IMG/VR virus record: IMGVR_UViG_3300042007_000202
Span: 1 to 64,000 of that record
Source of the DNA: a virus
Strand: one strand, 5' to 3'
Length of the DNA stretch: 64,000 nucleotides
Below, piece by piece: positions 4,744 through 64,000 of the stretch. Position numbers and translations under genes: made by a program. How positions within the stretch are numbered: position 1 is the stretch's first letter; every line of letters begins with the position of its first letter. Below the pieces are notes generated by a model that was given only the letters and a program-made list of their open reading frames with translations, did no database searches and was not told where the DNA came from.

Positions 4744-5055
4744 ATGTACCGGACCCGCACCCGCCGCCACCACCGCGCCACCATCCTGGGCGCCCGCCGC
4801 CAGCCCGCGCTGATCACGGCACGCACCCTCCTGGACCGGCTCGGCCTCGGTGACGACTTCGCCGCCCGGTACGCCTCCCAGATCACCCGCACCGCCCGCC
4901 GCCTGGGCATCACCCCCGCCGCCCGCACCTGGACCCGCCACAACGGCCGCCAGCGCCCCACCGCCGCCTACGACCTGGCCACACAGGCGCTCGACCTGAT
5001 CCGTACCGTCATCGCCTACAAGCGCACGGCCGAAGCCTTCGGCCTGACCGCCTGA
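4744..5055 (+). CDS. Basic hypothetical protein, 103 aa
   Basis: ATG at 4744 after GAGGAGG; the frame is open upstream to 4678 across the promoter. Very Arg-rich, with a helical middle and possibly nucleic-acid binding. First gene behind P4. Its stop is joined to a junction 12-mer. Confidence 0.78.
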   Translation: MYRTRTRRHHRATILGARRQPALITARTLLDRLGLGDDFAARYASQITRTARRLGITPAARTWTRHNGRQRPTAAYDLATQALDLIRTVIAYKRTAEAFGLTA

Positions 5056-8332: not shown

Positions 8333-8368
8333 CCGCCCGCCCGGCCGCCCGGCCGGGCGGGCGGCCGG
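8333..8368. repeat. GC-palindrome repeat
   Basis: CCGCCCG/GGCCGGGCGG units between two genes; it can fold into a long GC hairpin. Confidence 0.7.
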
Positions 8369-28726: not shown

Positions 28727-28947
28727 AGAGGGAAATGCTGGCAGGCCCGCCGTTGCCGAGCCCGGCGATTGCATAAGGATTCACACTCCCCCATACGTCC
28801 CCGAATTCCCCGGCGCTCATCCGCCAGCCGAATCCGCCGGAGCGGACGGGCCCGGAGGGCGCGGACCCCGCAGCGCGCTCACGATCGCTCTGGGAGAAGT
28901 CGGAGGAAACCTGCCGTTCGCCCTGCCCCCGGGCCGCCCGTCCACGG

Positions 28948-30986: not shown

Positions 30987-31022
30987 GCAGACCCCCGCCC
31001 CTTTCCCGCGCCCCCAGGGAAT

Positions 31023-31059
31023 CTCGGAGGAAACTTAATACGTTTCCTCCGAGCCCAGG
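31023..31059. repeat. Perfect dyad CTCGGAGGAAAC-N5-GTTTCCTCCGAG plus shared 20-mer
   Basis: Perfect 12-bp arms around 5-8 A/T-rich bases (31023-31052). Its right part ACGTTTCCTCCGAGCCCAGG (31040-31059) recurs exactly, inverted, at 62962-62981. It lies directly after the stop of the 31060-31701 gene. It may be a terminator, operator or recombination site; see findings. Confidence 0.7.
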
Positions 31060-31701
31060 TCAGGGGCTGTGAGTCTGGCCTATTCCGTGTCCCTTTTGAC
31101 CTGGATTGGCGGCAGGCTTTCCAGGCTTCGCACCTCGCTGGTGCCCGCACCTCCGGCCCATCCGGGCCGCCTTCAAGGTCACGCTGCGCTCCCTCCGGCA
31201 CCACCGGTTCCGGCACCGGCACCGCCACGGCGCGCCCACCGTGCCGGGGTACGGCTCCTCCGGCTCGTACCCGTACTCCCGCATCTCCTCAGCGGCCTCC
31301 AGCGGATCCATCACCGGCGCGGCGGGCGGCCGGTGCCCGCACAGCTTCCCCTGCCGCACATCGCCCAGGTGGCGCCGCTTGATCTGCCCGCACTCCACGC
31401 ACCGCAGCGACAGCACGGTGAAGGCCCGGCCGTCCCAGCCGTCCACCAGCTCAAACCCTGCCTCCGCCAGCTCCTTGCGGACCTCGTCCTCCGAGGGGCT
31501 GGGGGCCCTCAGGTGGTGGCACCGGCGCCCCTGCCGGATGTTCGTCAGGCGCAGCGTCCGGGGCTGCCCGCATTCCACGCAGCGCATCTTCCAGAGCGCC
31601 GACGCCTTGCCGGGGTACGGCTCCCCCGGCTCGTACCCGGCGGCCCGCGCCTCCGCTACCGCCTGCTCCGCCGTCACCGGCGGGGTCCTCTTGCGCTTCA
31701 T
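31060..31701 (-). CDS. Triple zinc-binding repeat protein
   Basis: 213 aa, ATG at 31701 overlapping the previous stop (ATGA). Three copies of one ~60-aa module: Y.PGEPYPG...W..(R)C..CG..R.L.L..IRQGR.C.H, at about 22-65, 78-123 and 140-190. Each copy has C-x2-C...C-x-H ligands, like a treble-clef or zinc-ribbon. The third copy has extra Cys/Arg residues. Tandem zinc modules of this type suggest DNA or RNA binding, but no function is known. Confidence 0.82.
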   Translation of the reverse strand: MKRKRTPPVTAEQAVAEARAAGYEPGEPYPGKASALWKMRCVECGQPRTLRLTNIRQGRRCHHLRAPSPSEDEVRKELAEAGFELVDGWDGRAFTVLSLRCVECGQIKRRHLGDVRQGKLCGHRPPAAPVMDPLEAAEEMREYGYEPEEPYPGTVGAPWRCRCRNRWCRRERSVTLKAARMGRRCGHQRGAKPGKPAANPGQKGHGIGQTHSP

Positions 31702-49961: not shown

Positions 49962-50010
49962 TGACACGAGATTTGCATGCGCGGTCGCACGGTGATAACT
50001 TGATGTCTCG
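49962..50010 (+). promoter_or_regulatory. Promoter-operator P9
   Basis: GTGACACGAGATTTGCA with TTTGCA (49972-49977), 18-bp spacer, TAACTT (49996-50001) and TTGATGTCTC right half. The best plus-strand example. Followed by a leader hairpin at 50014-50029. Confidence 0.78.
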
Positions 50011-50013
50011 CAA

Positions 50014-50029
50014 GGGGGCTGCGGCCCCC
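50014..50029 (+). promoter_or_regulatory. 5' leader hairpin after P9
   Basis: GGGGGC-tgcg-GCCCCC, then CACCACCACC and GGAGGAGCCAGCCATG; the same layout as after P1 and P7. Confidence 0.6.
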
Positions 50030-50056
50030 ACCACCACCGACCCGGAGGAGCCAGCC

Positions 50057-53431: not shown

Positions 53432-56400
53432 TCAGCTCGCGCGCGCGGCGGCCTTCATCGCCTCCCACTTCTGGATGGCCGCACAGGCTTCGGCCTTGCT
53501 GCCGGGGTTGACCTGCTGGATGCCGGGCCAGTTCAGGTCGCCGGAGGCGCACATCTTCTTCGCGGCGTTGACCCCGGTGGCGATGGCCCGGCTGGTGTCC
53601 ATGCCCTTGCTCTTGAGGTGGTCAGCGATCCGCTTGATGTACGGCGGCAGCCCGCCTTGCTGGTCGACCCAGTTCTTCGCCAGGGCGATGTCCTGGTTGC
53701 TCGGGGTGGGCAGGCCGCCGAACCCGGCCAGGGGCATGGGCACTTCGGTCTTGCGCTGGGGCTGGAGGCCGCTGATGCGCTTCCTGGCGAGGGCTGTGCG
53801 GCGGGCCAGGTCGGTGGCGCGGCGCTGGCTGGCGGTCTCCCTGAAGGCGGCCATGCGCTCTTCCAGGGAAGCGGCGCGCTGGCGGCGGGCGGCGCGGCCT
53901 TCCAGCTCATCCGCGACGGCCGCCGCCAGGTGCACCGGCTCCGCCTGGCGCAGCTCGAACGCCTGGAGGCCGCTGGCCTGGGCGGCGGGCTGGCTGTCGG
54001 GGGCGGAGGGCGGGGTGGCCTCTTCCTCCTTGGGCCAGAACCCGGCCGCGACGAGGGAGAAGAACGAGCCGTCGGGGCCGGTCTTCTTCGCGGCGAGGGG
54101 GAAGCCGGGGCTGTTGACCGCCAGCGCGGCGATCAGCTCGGCGCCGCCCCGGACCTCGCGCCAGTCCCCGGAGAACGAGGCGAGGGAGAGGCGGAGGCGG
54201 TCTTCCTGGCTGACGAAGGGGAGCACTGCCCCGGCGACCCAGATGCCGTGGGCGTCTTCACCGACGCGGACCACGGCGGCCTGGGTGCCGGTGTGGTCGT
54301 AGTGGGACATGGCGCCGGTCGCGCTGGCTGTCAGCTTGGCGTGGCCGGTGTTCATGGTGATCAGGCCGCAGCGGACCGTGCCTGTGCTGGTGCGGACGGG
54401 GCGCAGGTTGTAGTAGGCGTAGCCGGAGGCGGAGTGCGGCGGGGGGACGCAGCGGTCCTTGAAGCCGACGTGGCAGGAGCCCCAGGCGGCGAGGTAGCCG
54501 GATACCTGCCCGGTCTCTACATCCACGCGGATGGAGTGGGCGCCGGAGCTGCCGTCGGGCTGCTCGAACCACTCGCCGGGCGGGGTCCAGCCGGGGGCGA
54601 AGGTCTCTGTGGTGGCGGAGGCGGTGATGGCGACGGCCTGGCACGGCTCGCATCCGGCCGGAGGCTCGGACGCCTCGGCCTCCTGCACGATGGACTCGGC
54701 CTCGTCCACCACGGCGGCGGCGGCCTCGGTCTCCGGCGCCCCGGCTGCTGTGATCTTGTCCCACGGGGTGGCCTTGACCTCCTCGCGCAGGGCGCCCATG
54801 TCCGCCAGTCCGGCCGGGTCCCACCACGCGACGACCTCAATACTGTCGCCGTCGGGGTCGTCCGGGTTCAGGACGGTGCGGTCGTCGGGGTCGGGGTTGA
54901 TGCCGACGCCGCTCTCCTCCGGCACCAGCAGCAGGAAGCCCTGGTACACGCCGTTGTCGCTGGTCCAGGTGTCCACGATCTCGCCCTGGCCGCGCATGTC
55001 GCAGCCGGTCTCCTCGCAGAACTCCCGGAAGGCGGCGTCCTCGGCGGTCTCGCCCTCCTCGATGCCGCCGCCCGGCCACTCCCACATGCCGGAGGCGGGG
55101 TCTTCGTCGTCCAGGGCGCGCTGGATCAGCAGCACGCGGCCGGTGTCCTGTGCCTTGACCGCCAGCCCGGCGTGCGTGGGGGTGGATGCCGGGCTGGCGG
55201 GGTCTTCGTCCTCCGCGAGACGCGTGACGCCCATCTGCGCGGATGGGGTGACGTCGTCGGGGGTGGAGGGGCGGGCGCCGGGGGCGTCGCAGGGGGCGGG
55301 CTCCCATCCGGTGCCGTCCTCGGTCGGCGCGACGCACTCCCCCGTCACGACAGGGGTTTCAGGGTCAAGCTCTTCAGCGGCCTGCTCGTCGTCTGCGGCG
55401 ATGTCCTGGGGGACATCCCCCGCCTCGGCCTCCTCGTCATCCTCAGTGGCCGTCTGGGAGTCCTCAGCCGGTACCGCCTCTTCCTCCGGCTCCACGGGTG
55501 CTTCGCCCTGGGCCTGTTCCGGCTCGAACGGGCCGTCGCCGGTGGGGTTCGCCGGGACCGCTTCGGGGTCTTCGCAGTCAGCCGCCATCCACGCGCCGAT
55601 CTCGTCCTGCTTCACGCAGCCCCAGGCCGGGTCGTAGCCCACGATCTCCGAGAACGCCGCAGCGGTGAGGGCCTGGCCGTCCGCGTCCGCGAGAGCGATG
55701 GCCGCGTTGGGGAAGGCCGGGTGGGCCAGGAGGGTGGCGCCCATAATGCGCCAGCCGTCGTAGACGTCGCCGACCATGAGGGAGCGGTCGTTGGGGTCGC
55801 CGTCCGGCACGATGGTGCCGTCTTCCCTGAGGAGCACCTGGTGGGCGCTGGCGTCGTCCACGTCCAGACTGACGAAGCGGACGAAGCCCAGGCCGACCTT
55901 GCGGGCCAGGTCGCGCCCGACCGGGTCCTCCATGTCGAAGCGGCCCTCGCCCCACACCTGGCTCCCTTCGGTCCAGATGCGGTCGATGACGCCGACGCCG
56001 AGTTCGGAGCCGTCGTGGCCCTTGGCCAGGGTGCCCTGGACGAGGAGCGGCAGCGGAAGGGGGCGGGAGCGGACGCCGCCCTCGGGGGTGGCGAGCATTC
56101 GCTGATCCGCGGACCACTCGTCCATGAAGCCCAGGACGCCGCGCCACCGGCCGCTGGGCTCCACGGTCACGGGTCCTGTCTCGGTGACGGTGGGCGTGGT
56201 CATGGACTCCTCCTGTGGTGCTGAGGCGGCGGTGAGGGCGGGGTCCCCGGCGGGGCCGTAGCGGGCGGAGCAGCGGCAGTTGATGACTTCGCCTGCGGGG
56301 CCGAGGGGGTCGCCGGGGAACTGGAGGCGGTGGCCGCCGATCTCGAACGGCTCGGTCAGGGGGCGGACTTGGCCGTCGGCGTTGAGGTGGGTCTCGCGTA

Positions 56401-57004
56401 CGCGCTGGTCGTGGGTGCATTGCCAGCGCTTCTCCCACGGCTGGCCGGTGCGCTCCTGTTCCGCGAGCGCGCCGTGCGCGGCGCCCGCGTTGAGGGCCGT
56501 CATGGTCTCGGTGCGGGTCATGGTCATGATCTGGCCGTCCCACTCCTCCAGCGTCATCAGCGCGGACAGGCGTTCCTTGAGCTGGGCGGGGGATTCGCCG
56601 CTCGGCCGGTGCAGGATGGCGCGCAGCAGCCGGTCAGCGAAGGCGCGCCGGAACCCGGCGAGGCGGTCGCCCAGGCCTTCGCCGTGGCCTTGGTCGTCGT
56701 CGGGGGCGTCGTCGGGGCGGCCGGTGATCCGTCCGAAGCTGCCGCGCCACAGGGCGCGGGTGGGGCCGAGGACGAAGCGGTTCAGGATGCGCCGCCAGGT
56801 CGCCTCTGACGGCACGCCCGGCGGGTGGCCGGGCTCGGGCTCGGCGGCGGCTGTCAGGGCCTCCAGAGAGCCGCCCAGCGGTCCCTTGCGGGCTTCCGCG
56901 AGGAAGGCTTCCACGGCGTCCCGGATGGCGGGGTAGAGCTGGGCTTCGGCCCGGCGGATGTAGGTGTAGTCCTTCATCCGCTCGGACAGCCACGGGTCAG
57001 GCAT
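53432..57004 (-). CDS. MuF - capsid protease - Nudix fusion head protein
   Basis: 1190 aa from the ATG at 57004 (TTG 57010 also possible). MuF-like part (1-260): TMTRTETMTALNAGA, QCTHDQRVRETH and GEVINCRC. Protease first part (~285-440): WRGVLGFMDEWS, LPLPLLVQGT, GHDGS, GEGRFDMED, VRFVSLDVDD. Then a long acidic linker and a Nudix domain (~605-745) with a perfect box GGIEEGETAEDAAFREFCEE at ~643-666. Protease second part (~810-985): GYLAAWGSCHVGFKDRC, TGHAKL, HYDHTG, AVNSPGFPL. The tail (~1100-1190) has LPPYIKRIADHLKSKGM and CASGDLNWPG. The Nudix domain splits the protease. Confidence 0.88.
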   Translation of the reverse strand: MPDPWLSERMKDYTYIRRAEAQLYPAIRDAVEAFLAEARKGPLGGSLEALTAAAEPEPGHPPGVPSEATWRRILNRFVLGPTRALWRGSFGRITGRPDDAPDDDQGHGEGLGDRLAGFRRAFADRLLRAILHRPSGESPAQLKERLSALMTLEEWDGQIMTMTRTETMTALNAGAAHGALAEQERTGQPWEKRWQCTHDQRVRETHLNADGQVRPLTEPFEIGGHRLQFPGDPLGPAGEVINCRCSARYGPAGDPALTAASAPQEESMTTPTVTETGPVTVEPSGRWRGVLGFMDEWSADQRMLATPEGGVRSRPLPLPLLVQGTLAKGHDGSELGVGVIDRIWTEGSQVWGEGRFDMEDPVGRDLARKVGLGFVRFVSLDVDDASAHQVLLREDGTIVPDGDPNDRSLMVGDVYDGWRIMGATLLAHPAFPNAAIALADADGQALTAAAFSEIVGYDPAWGCVKQDEIGAWMAADCEDPEAVPANPTGDGPFEPEQAQGEAPVEPEEEAVPAEDSQTATEDDEEAEAGDVPQDIAADDEQAAEELDPETPVVTGECVAPTEDGTGWEPAPCDAPGARPSTPDDVTPSAQMGVTRLAEDEDPASPASTPTHAGLAVKAQDTGRVLLIQRALDDEDPASGMWEWPGGGIEEGETAEDAAFREFCEETGCDMRGQGEIVDTWTSDNGVYQGFLLLVPEESGVGINPDPDDRTVLNPDDPDGDSIEVVAWWDPAGLADMGALREEVKATPWDKITAAGAPETEAAAAVVDEAESIVQEAEASEPPAGCEPCQAVAITASATTETFAPGWTPPGEWFEQPDGSSGAHSIRVDVETGQVSGYLAAWGSCHVGFKDRCVPPPHSASGYAYYNLRPVRTSTGTVRCGLITMNTGHAKLTASATGAMSHYDHTGTQAAVVRVGEDAHGIWVAGAVLPFVSQEDRLRLSLASFSGDWREVRGGAELIAALAVNSPGFPLAAKKTGPDGSFFSLVAAGFWPKEEEATPPSAPDSQPAAQASGLQAFELRQAEPVHLAAAVADELEGRAARRQRAASLEERMAAFRETASQRRATDLARRTALARKRISGLQPQRKTEVPMPLAGFGGLPTPSNQDIALAKNWVDQQGGLPPYIKRIADHLKSKGMDTSRAIATGVNAAKKMCASGDLNWPGIQQVNPGSKAEACAAIQKWEAMKAAARAS
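54521..54532. promoter_or_regulatory. 12-mer ATCCACGCGGAT inside the head-protein gene
   Basis: Exact family member in a coding frame; its role, if any, is unclear. Another exact copy is at 55233-55244. Confidence 0.3.
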
Positions 57005-59124: not shown

Positions 59125-59622
59125 TCAGGGGGTCGTGGGCGGCTGTGTGAGCTGGATAGCTACGTGGCCGGAGTGGACCTGCTGAGTGGGCGGGGGCGGG
59201 GAGTCGAGCCAGTCGGCTGCGATGGCGGTGACCCAGGACATGGCGAAGACGGCCACGGTGTAGGTGAAGCCGGTGGCGAGGGAGTGGGTGGGCCACAGGC
59301 CGAGCCAGCAGCGGTAGTAGGCGAGGGTGAGGGCGGCGGAGACCCAGAAGCCGGAGCACCAGGGGCAGGTGACGAGCTTGGCCGCGTAGCGCCAGAAGCG
59401 GGGGGCAGGGCGGAGGGGGCCGGGGCCGTCGGGGGTTTCGCCGTAGATCTGGCGGGGCGCCCGGCCGCCCGCCCGGCCGGGCGGCCGGGCGTGTCGGGGC
59501 TGGGCTTTCATGTCGATCCAGTCACGCAGGGGCTGAGTGATGGTGTCCTCGGTGATGAGCCTGGTGATGCGGGCGGTCGCGAGGAGGGTGAGGAGGGAGA
59601 TGAGTACGGAGAGCCATGCCAC
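59125..59622 (-). CDS. Membrane protein, DUF1360-like, with in-frame GC-repeat insert
   Basis: 165 aa, GTG at 59622. LLATARITRLITEDTITQPL and AKLVTCPWCSGFWVSAALT are landmarks of DUF1360-like membrane proteins. Two or three hydrophobic segments follow. Between the first part and the CPWC motif a GC-palindrome copy (59458-59490) adds PPGRAGGRAP. Function unknown; found near portal genes in other Streptomyces phages as far as I recall. Confidence 0.8.
   Translation of the reverse strand: MAWLSVLISLLTLLATARITRLITEDTITQPLRDWIDMKAQPRHARPPGRAGGRAPRQIYGETPDGPGPLRPAPRFWRYAAKLVTCPWCSGFWVSAALTLAYYRCWLGLWPTHSLATGFTYTVAVFAMSWVTAIAADWLDSPPPPTQQVHSGHVAIQLTQPPTTP
59458..59490. repeat. GC repeat inside a coding frame
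   Basis: CCGCCCGCCCGGCCGGGCGGCCGGGC copy read as Pro/Gly/Arg/Ala. Confidence 0.75.
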
Positions 59623-62572: not shown

Positions 62573-62815
62573 CTAGTTGGCGATCCGTAGTGCCGGGCGG
62601 GCGGGCGGCCGGGCGGGCGGGCGGCCGGGCATCTCGGCTCCGAGGGCGCGCCCGGCTGCCAGGAGCTTGTCCGCTGCATCCCGGACCAGGCAGCGGACCT
62701 CGAAGTGCCCGCCGGAGTGGAGATCCTTGAGGAGTTCGCGCAGATCAGCCTCTTGGGCCATCACTGCTTCGCGGATCTGGACAGGGTCCGGAGGTGGCAA
62801 GAAGTCGTTGTCCAT
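62573..62815 (-). CDS. Small helical protein with GC-repeat tail, 80 aa
   Basis: ATG at 62815. Residues 1-60 are helical (IREAVMAQEADLRELLKDLH). The C-terminus EMPGRPPARPPARPAL is encoded by a GC-repeat copy (62592-62631). No family recognised. Confidence 0.74.
   Translation of the reverse strand: MDNDFLPPPDPVQIREAVMAQEADLRELLKDLHSGGHFEVRCLVRDAADKLLAAGRALGAEMPGRPPARPPARPALRIAN
62592..62631. repeat. GC repeat as C-terminal coding extension
   Basis: GCCGGGCGGGCGGGCGGCCGGG tandem units, translated as an Arg/Pro/Ala tail. Confidence 0.75.
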
Positions 62816-62961
62816 TCAGTCACATTAGCGACGAAGTGACTACGGAGTGGAAGCGTTTGTACAAGTCGCCTGTGAGGGTTTCCTGCGCGAGGTGTGCACT
62901 TGCCCCCGGCATCGGATGATCGCGTTCCGGTTTAGGGCGTGCCGCAGGTGACACGTGCCTG

Positions 62962-62981
62962 CCTGGGCTCGGAGGAAACGT
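62962..62981. repeat. Shared 20-mer CCTGGGCTCGGAGGAAACGT
   Basis: Exact inverted copy of 31040-31059; it begins the hairpin array. Confidence 0.75.
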
Positions 62982-62982
62982 G

Positions 62983-63023
62983 CCTGGCCCCTCCCCCGGG
63001 CTGAGCGCGAGGGAGGGGCCAGG
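62983..63023. terminator. Hairpin A, 13-bp perfect stem
   Basis: CCTGGCCCCTCCC / GGGAGGGGCCAGG with a 15-base loop. Confidence 0.65.
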
Positions 63024-63030
63024 TGTTCGG

Positions 63031-63069
63031 GGGGCCACCCCTGTGGTGCGGAAGAGGCGGGGTGGCCCC
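63031..63069. terminator. Hairpin B, 11-bp perfect stem
   Basis: GGGGCCACCCC / GGGGTGGCCCC with a 17-base loop. Confidence 0.65.
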
Positions 63070-63162
63070 CGGCGCCCGCAGCGGCACGGGTGCCCGTCCC
63101 GGCGTGCGCGTCTGAGGTCGGCAAAGGAGGGTGCCGCAGCGCAGGCCGGGGAGGTTCCTGGG

Positions 63163-63198
63163 CCGCGCCCCCGCTTGTGCTGGAGGGCGGGGGCGCGG
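63163..63198. terminator. Hairpin C, 12-bp perfect stem
   Basis: CCGCGCCCCCGC / GCGGGGGCGCGG with a 12-base loop. Confidence 0.65.
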
Positions 63199-63258
63199 TG
63201 GGTGCACACGACCGACAGAGGCTGTCCTGGGGAGGTAGCGCGCCCATCCCGTGCACCG

Positions 63259-63296
63259 CGTACATGAAGTTAGCACACGCGCACGCTGTGTGCATG
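63259..63296 (-). promoter_or_regulatory. Promoter-operator P10 (partial, minus)
   Basis: On the minus strand GCTAACTTCATGTA matches the -10 and right half-site of P1; at an 18-bp distance the -35 is CATGCA, as in P5. Confidence 0.4.
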
Positions 63297-63370
63297 GGGT
63301 AGGGCGGCCCCTTCTCTTGCGGGTGGTGTGGGGGCGCCGCCGCCCCGGGCCCGTAAGCGGCCCGGGGGGC

Positions 63371-63386
63371 GGACATGGGGTTTGCG
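63371..63386 (+). promoter_or_regulatory. Isolated left half-site P11 (GGACATGGGGTTTGCG)
   Basis: Matches the left half and -35 of the operator family, but no -10 box follows. Could be a repressor site alone. Confidence 0.35.
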
Positions 63387-63397
63387 TACGCGCGCCG

Positions 63398-64000
63398 TTA
63401 CCGCCCGCCGCCTGGCAGTCCCGGCCCGCTGCGCCCGAGCGGGATCGAGCCGAACCCGCCGCGCTGCCCTGCCTGCTGGGCGGCCTGGGCGATGCTGACC
63501 TGGGAGGCGTTGCCGATGTGCTGGCTGGCGCCGGGGATCTTGAGCAGTCCGTAGGCGAGGTACGTGCTGGCGTCGATGCGGCCCGGCGAGTCGGTGTGGT
63601 CCGGCTGCCACGTGGCCCACTCCTCCTCCATCTCCGGCAGGTACGCCGTGGTGCGGATCCGGTCCTCCAGCCACTGCTGGGCGATGGGCTCCGCCCGCAG
63701 GTGCTTCCCCGTCTTCGCGGTGACGGGCTGGATGTACGGCTTGAGGGCGCCCTTGGGGATGGCGCCTTCCTTCTGGAGGGCTTCCCACGCGGTGGCGATG
63801 GCCAGGTTGACCATGTCGCCTCCGTAGTTGCGTTCTACGAGGATGACCGTCGCGCCGATCTCGAACGCCAGCAGGCATGCCCGCCGCGACCACTGCGCGG
63901 ACGAGCACGGGCGGGAGCGGTCGTGGGTGATGTAGAGCCGCTGGTCTGTGCCCCGGAACCCGCCGATGATCCCGGCGACGTCCCGGCCGCCGCCGGACGG
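63398..64000 (-). CDS. terL: Large terminase subunit, C-terminal part (cut by the window edge)
   Basis: 200 aa visible; the start lies beyond 64000. GRDVAGIIGGFRGTDQRLYI, then ITHDRS, VILVERNYGGDMVNLAI, KTGKHLRAEPIAQQW and SPGRIDASTYLAYG are the landmarks of the RNase H-like nuclease domain that cuts packaged DNA. The acidic residues Glu (VERN) and Asp (SPGRIDA) are kept. The C-terminus is Gly/Gln-rich. Head genes follow it in the minus-strand direction. Confidence 0.9.
   Translation of the reverse strand, partial: PSGGGRDVAGIIGGFRGTDQRLYITHDRSRPCSSAQWSRRACLLAFEIGATVILVERNYGGDMVNLAIATAWEALQKEGAIPKGALKPYIQPVTAKTGKHLRAEPIAQQWLEDRIRTTAYLPEMEEEWATWQPDHTDSPGRIDASTYLAYGLLKIPGASQHIGNASQVSIAQAAQQAGQRGGFGSIPLGRSGPGLPGGGR

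Follow-up and report, generated by a model that had tools for sequence, protein, structure and literature searches.

We have analysed a window of 64,000 bp, positions 1–64000 of the 108,671-bp virus record IMGVR_UViG_3300042007_000202, and within it a gap of 582 bp (62816–63397) that has the gene for the terminase large subunit (TerL) on one side and a conserved gene for an 80-residue protein on the other, both on the minus strand (Table 1). The GC content of the 108.7-kb genome is 71.5%. TerL matches the PHROG terminase large subunit family (1e-80) and Pfam Terminase_6N (7e-9), and the 80-residue protein has no match in PHROG or Pfam. The minus strand downstream of the gap carries the portal, MuF-NUDIX, major head, major tail and tape measure genes, and the gap most likely sits within the late minus-strand block of an actinobacteriophage, between the terminase and the portal/capsid/tail modules. 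A search with TerL yielded a single close relative, one 111,261-bp contig whose TerL is 91% identical. The original prediction placed the gap in a gene-free region beside the terminase, and this description holds in both respects: the gap directly follows terL, and no open reading frame within it is conserved in the relative. A tRNA scan of the gap found nothing, Rfam covariance models gave no match at gathering cutoffs and only two chance-level matches (E about 3), and blastn searches of phages and plasmids with the region returned terminase coding pieces only, or nothing. An iteron-type origin was rejected, as the sole direct repeat in the gap is one pair of 12-mers.

Table 1. Features of the terL-proximal gap, its flanking genes and the related element at 31 kb. 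Positions are those of the window unless stated otherwise.
Feature	Position	Strand	Details
80-aa gene	62573..62815	minus	Open reading frame call; homologue at the matching place in the relative, with visible protein similarity
Conserved block b with putative leaderless-type promoter and the region upstream of it	62817..62932	minus	TAATGT at 62827-62822, 6 nt before the ATG
20-mer CCTGGGCTCGGAGGAAACGT	62962..62981	plus	Single half-site resembling the 31-kb palindrome
Stem 1	62983..63023	none	13 perfect bp, 15-nt loop; 20 bp with 2 mismatches
Stem 2	63030..63070	none	12 bp, perfect, 17-nt loop; T-run absent on both sides
Stem 3	63163..63198	none	12 bp, perfect, 12-nt loop; T-run absent on both sides
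Conserved block a with putative promoter P_a	63220..63292	minus	Extended -10 TGCTAACTT at about 63275-63267, plus ~40 nt of presumed initial transcript
Fourth hairpin, directly after terL	63319..63391	minus	-36.5 kcal/mol (local folding)
Terminase large subunit gene, 3' part in the window	63398..64000 (whole gene 64987-63398 of the record)	minus	529 aa
Separate conserved element with palindrome 31023-31053	31017..31101	minus	84% over 85 bp in the relative (66315-66399)

Two other features of the genome were noted in passing. The MuF-NUDIX protein, 1181 residues long and encoded at 53432–56977, combines a phage Mu F-like domain and a NUDIX domain in one polypeptide. Just outside the window, at record positions 66772–67713 and 67706–68509, a Tet/JBP-type oxygenase domain adjoins a gene of the phage HMC glucosyltransferase family, and this pair (66772–68509) suggests that the DNA may contain hypermodified bases.

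The three perfect stems of the gap span 216 bp (62983–63198), as originally described, and of the lengths then given (13, 11 and 12 bp) the 13 and the last 12 are correct, the stem put at 11 bp being 12 bp long. They are well beyond chance expectation, in that three stems of at least 11 bp are observed against a mean of 0.013 and a maximum of one in 300 dinucleotide-preserving shuffles, and the minus-strand folding of the gap is more stable than that of shuffles (z of -4.75 to about -5.3), which is among the strongest values of all gaps in this genome. Of the 53 perfect stems of at least 11 bp in the 108.7-kb genome 42 are intergenic (34 of 42 in the relative), so stems of this kind are a general feature of its gaps; they are sparse in divergent gaps and present in five of the nine convergent ones, mostly without T-runs, and intergenic ends elsewhere in both genomes also carry U-poor hairpins. 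The T-run expected directly after the stem of a canonical terminator is absent from the tails of the three gap stems on both strands, with weak T content (CACGTTTCC) following stem 1 on the minus strand, and a terminator scan listed none of the three. As stable, GC-rich intergenic hairpins in excess of chance, they do have the attributes by which U-poor terminators are recognized in actinobacteria. A strong hairpin after terL is not consistent among more distant TerL relatives, about four of 14 having one, and the idea that the TerL family has it in general was therefore rejected; it belongs to the present lineage, in which there are extra genes and a gap between terL and the portal gene. We also note a dispersed GC-only palindromic repeat (CCGCCCGCCCGGCCG...) at window positions 8333–8368, 59458–59491 and 62592–62630, at record positions 65334, 97237 and 103653, and at others, which lies mostly at gene ends or in gaps and encodes the RPPARPPARP tail of the 80-residue protein.

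The relative's genome is collinear with this one, in inverted orientation and with a circular permutation, and the sequence of each continues across the points at which the other ends. The relative has a gap of 573 bp after terL, and two blocks are conserved between the gaps, block a (88% over 74 bp), at roughly terL's own level, and block b (78% over 116 bp); the conservation of block a is ordinary in comparison with other gaps of the genome pair, and a search for its pattern in IMG/VR returned the known relative only. The approximately 290 bp between the two blocks cannot be aligned, while most other gaps of the pair align at 71–94%. Three strong hairpins nevertheless occupy this interval in the relative, at gap positions 104–162, about 245–310 and 354–427, with unrelated sequence. 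The fourth hairpin is present in this genome only, the relative having about 26 nt between the terL stop codon and block a. Conservation, which had been proposed as a check on the region, is thus seen in the two flanking blocks and does not extend to the hairpin sequences or the 20-mer, and two genomes are too few for base-pair covariation to be counted within each hairpin. Retention of the hairpin layout with replacement of its sequence fits terminators better than a site recognized by a protein, pac and cos included, or an RNA whose action depends on its sequence.

Both conserved blocks appear to contain promoters, as judged from position and sequence. The end of block b would be a leaderless-type promoter of the 80-residue gene, and TAATGTGACTGR-ATG is retained in both genomes. 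The putative promoter in block a, P_a, matches a motif found throughout the genome, weakly here (15.4 bits) and clearly in the relative (22.6 bits). Its downstream half (extended -10 TGNTAAYNT plus TCRTGTCWC) is present, with the GTGTC part degenerate in this genome. The inverted upstream half with the -35 sequence TTGCNN, sought 31–32 bp away, is missing, as neither 63259 nor position 32336 of the relative is accompanied by a match scoring more than 14 bits. P_a is thus half of a module and is without a good -35. A scan with the sigma-70 consensus found nothing; the putative promoters here have a -35 of TTGCNN and a -10 of TAAYNT. P_a is also peculiar in its position, as the next gene start is 443 nt away compared with 6–94 nt for the other -10-type members, and in both genomes it is the only such member with no gene start within about 100 nt, the exception being one site inside a called coding sequence in each genome. 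Conservation runs about 40 nt into the presumed P_a transcript, where there is no coding pattern and a 1-nt indel. Because this indel breaks the frame after P_a in the relative, and no open reading frame is conserved, a coding reading of the gap was rejected.

The motif was seeded from the -10 region of P_a, GTGCTAACTTCATGT. It has 57 matches above 10 bits in the genome compared with about four in shuffled genomes, and among matches above 14 bits 49 of 52 are intergenic here and 52 of 54 in the relative, the sites normally lying a short way ahead of gene starts. They form inverted pairs, 16 in this genome and 20 in the relative, at a separation of exactly 31 or 32 bp and usually 24–52 nt before a gene start. 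The consensus of a pair is approximately GWGACAYGAGRTTTGC...TGMTAAYNTCRTGTCWC, in which an inverted repeat encloses a TTGCNN resembling a -35 and a TGNTAAYNT resembling an extended -10, their spacing being about 17 bp as judged by eye. Such inverted-repeat modules of about 50 bp are seen at window positions 83, 2175, 4697, 38644 and 49992, at record position 65302 and at others, with many more at 78–108 kb. On the downstream side of the modules (window 96–50 and, for example, 49992–50050), many transcripts would open with a short hairpin of the form GGGGG...CCCCC, after which come ACCACC and a ribosome-binding site. Neither blastn against GenBank phages nor a strict pattern applied to other IMG/VR contigs recovered the module, which, being common to two actinophage genomes of about 110 kb, provides a concrete map of likely regulated promoters. 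Another repeat, TGATCCRCGCAGATAGGAC, occurs at window positions 5054, 7241 and 50950, at record position 73845 and at four more places in the relative; it overlaps the upstream stop codon, usually 22–29 nt before the next start codon, and has a ribosome-binding-like AGGA inside it.

The 20-mer of the gap does recur in inverted orientation at 31040–31059, inside a perfect palindrome with 12-bp arms, as the original prediction had reported, and the link to this palindrome amounts to one half-site at most, which is not conserved, the 20-mer being missing from the gap of the relative. Of 20 fourth-order Markov genomes, seven contain one or more repeated 20-mers and three contain one with a GC count of at most 14, as here, so a lone repeat of this kind is weakly improbable and not far above chance. 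The exact 20-mer has no match in IMG/VR, in a search that possibly left out its own record. It may be no more than a stray half-site, or one arisen by chance, of the separate putative operator at 31 kb. The element that contains the palindrome is conserved in the relative, and its neighbouring genes are not; the palindrome arms have undergone a compensatory double change from T-A to A-T, with the loop GTATTAA unchanged. Conservation of CTGACC-17-TATTAA on the minus strand of this element suggests that it is probably an operator over a promoter. Another half-site is located at 28899 and has a counterpart in the relative at 66929. Outside the window, at record positions 93248–93307, a divergent gap of 915 bp contains a perfect inverted repeat (25 bp, 10-nt loop) that is a candidate control region or origin.

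We consider it probable that the gap is a transcription boundary, comprising a promoter, hairpin terminators and a second promoter. On the minus strand the end of terL would be followed by P_a and its conserved initial transcript, the three GC-rich, U-poor hairpins would stop polymerases arriving both from terL and from P_a, and the second conserved promoter would restart transcription at the leaderless 80-residue gene, toward the portal gene. Both termination by the hairpins and activity of the two promoters are inferred from the arrangement described above, and efficient termination by hairpins that lack U residues is a debated matter. The gap otherwise looks ordinary, save for the one promoter with no gene directly behind it, and this promoter is a testable candidate for late-gene control. 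The case also illustrates that prominent hairpins adjoining the terminase gene of a phage are more plausibly transcription punctuation than part of a packaging site.

Packaging recognition was one of the two roles originally proposed, and the gap adjoins terL and contains a block about as conserved as terL itself, but we think it very improbable that this is a pac or cos site. Block a is accounted for by the promoter motif, and its conservation is unexceptional for the pair; it is the promoter-like block a that the close relative keeps, and not the hairpin sequences or the 20-mer. The usual neighbourhood of pac is terS, which ends at 65667, 2.3 kb from the gap. The mutual permutation of the two contigs, neither of which breaks at the gap, and the circular permutation of the nearest characterised TerL relatives together make a cos site unlikely; among characterised phages the best TerL matches include Wizard and other Gordonia DC phages, which are given as circularly permuted (PMC5559632). 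There is also little likelihood that the stems are functionless, as GC-rich and fast-evolving filler that folds by accident. The base composition of the genome, its many GC palindromes and the rapid evolution of the middle of the gap would all suit such an explanation, but shuffles matched in composition give 0.013 such stems, the three stems are distinct from the dispersed CCCGGCCG repeat, and the relative independently retains three hairpins.

The other role originally proposed, a structured control RNA or antiterminator, fares better in part, as a transcriptional control region is the most likely identity of the gap, and an antitermination leader or small RNA from P_a is a possibility at most. 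We regard it as unlikely that the transcript from P_a is a structured RNA with a function, whether as an independent small RNA or as a leader that takes a modified polymerase past the terminators into the late genes. The isolation of P_a from any gene start and the conserved non-coding stretch behind it are consistent with such a product, and late antitermination regions are likewise laid out with a promoter, a short non-coding stretch, terminators and late genes in succession along one strand. In the lambda pR'-6S RNA-tR' system with Q, and with HK022 put, polymerase passes terminators into late genes, and lambda pR' shares with P_a a short non-coding transcript and a terminator ahead of late genes on the same strand. 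However, the lambda arrangement is upstream of the lysis genes and the present one is between terL and the portal gene, we identified no Q-like protein or site, and the gene next to the hairpins has its own conserved promoter; the hairpin sequences themselves are not conserved, and Rfam has no match for a structured RNA in the gap. It is with considerable doubt that we raise the proposal that P_a and its conserved first 40 nt are a late-gene antitermination start, or a phage small RNA promoter, in an actinobacteriophage. If true, polymerase loaded at P_a would be modified and run through the three hairpins, switching on a structural gene block of about 50 kb.

The transcription boundary that we favor has its closest parallel in Streptomyces, where terminators mapped by Term-seq are reported to be long and very stable with few U residues (PMC12207403). 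Both sets of hairpins are long, stable, GC-rich and intergenic, and the sequence after the stem contains few U residues or none; those described here are putative terminators, in a phage whose host is not certain, and there are three in tandem within 216 bp. Cluster K mycobacteriophages carry SAS/ESAS elements with which the promoter modules bear comparison (PMC3203893). These are inverted repeats of some 17 bp, dispersed over the genome immediately ahead of gene starts and outside most structural genes, and the repeats of the modules share these properties of size, dispersal and position. In TM4, whose right half was scanned with the module motif, no site scores above 12 bits, and SAS-like matches (GGGATAGGAGCCC) in the present genome are few and mostly not at starts, so membership of the Cluster K ESAS family was rejected. 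No SAS consensus accompanies the starts here, the sequences are unrelated, the spacing is longer (31–32 bp from repeat to repeat), and in contrast to the ESAS the repeats themselves contain the -35-like and -10-like hexamers.
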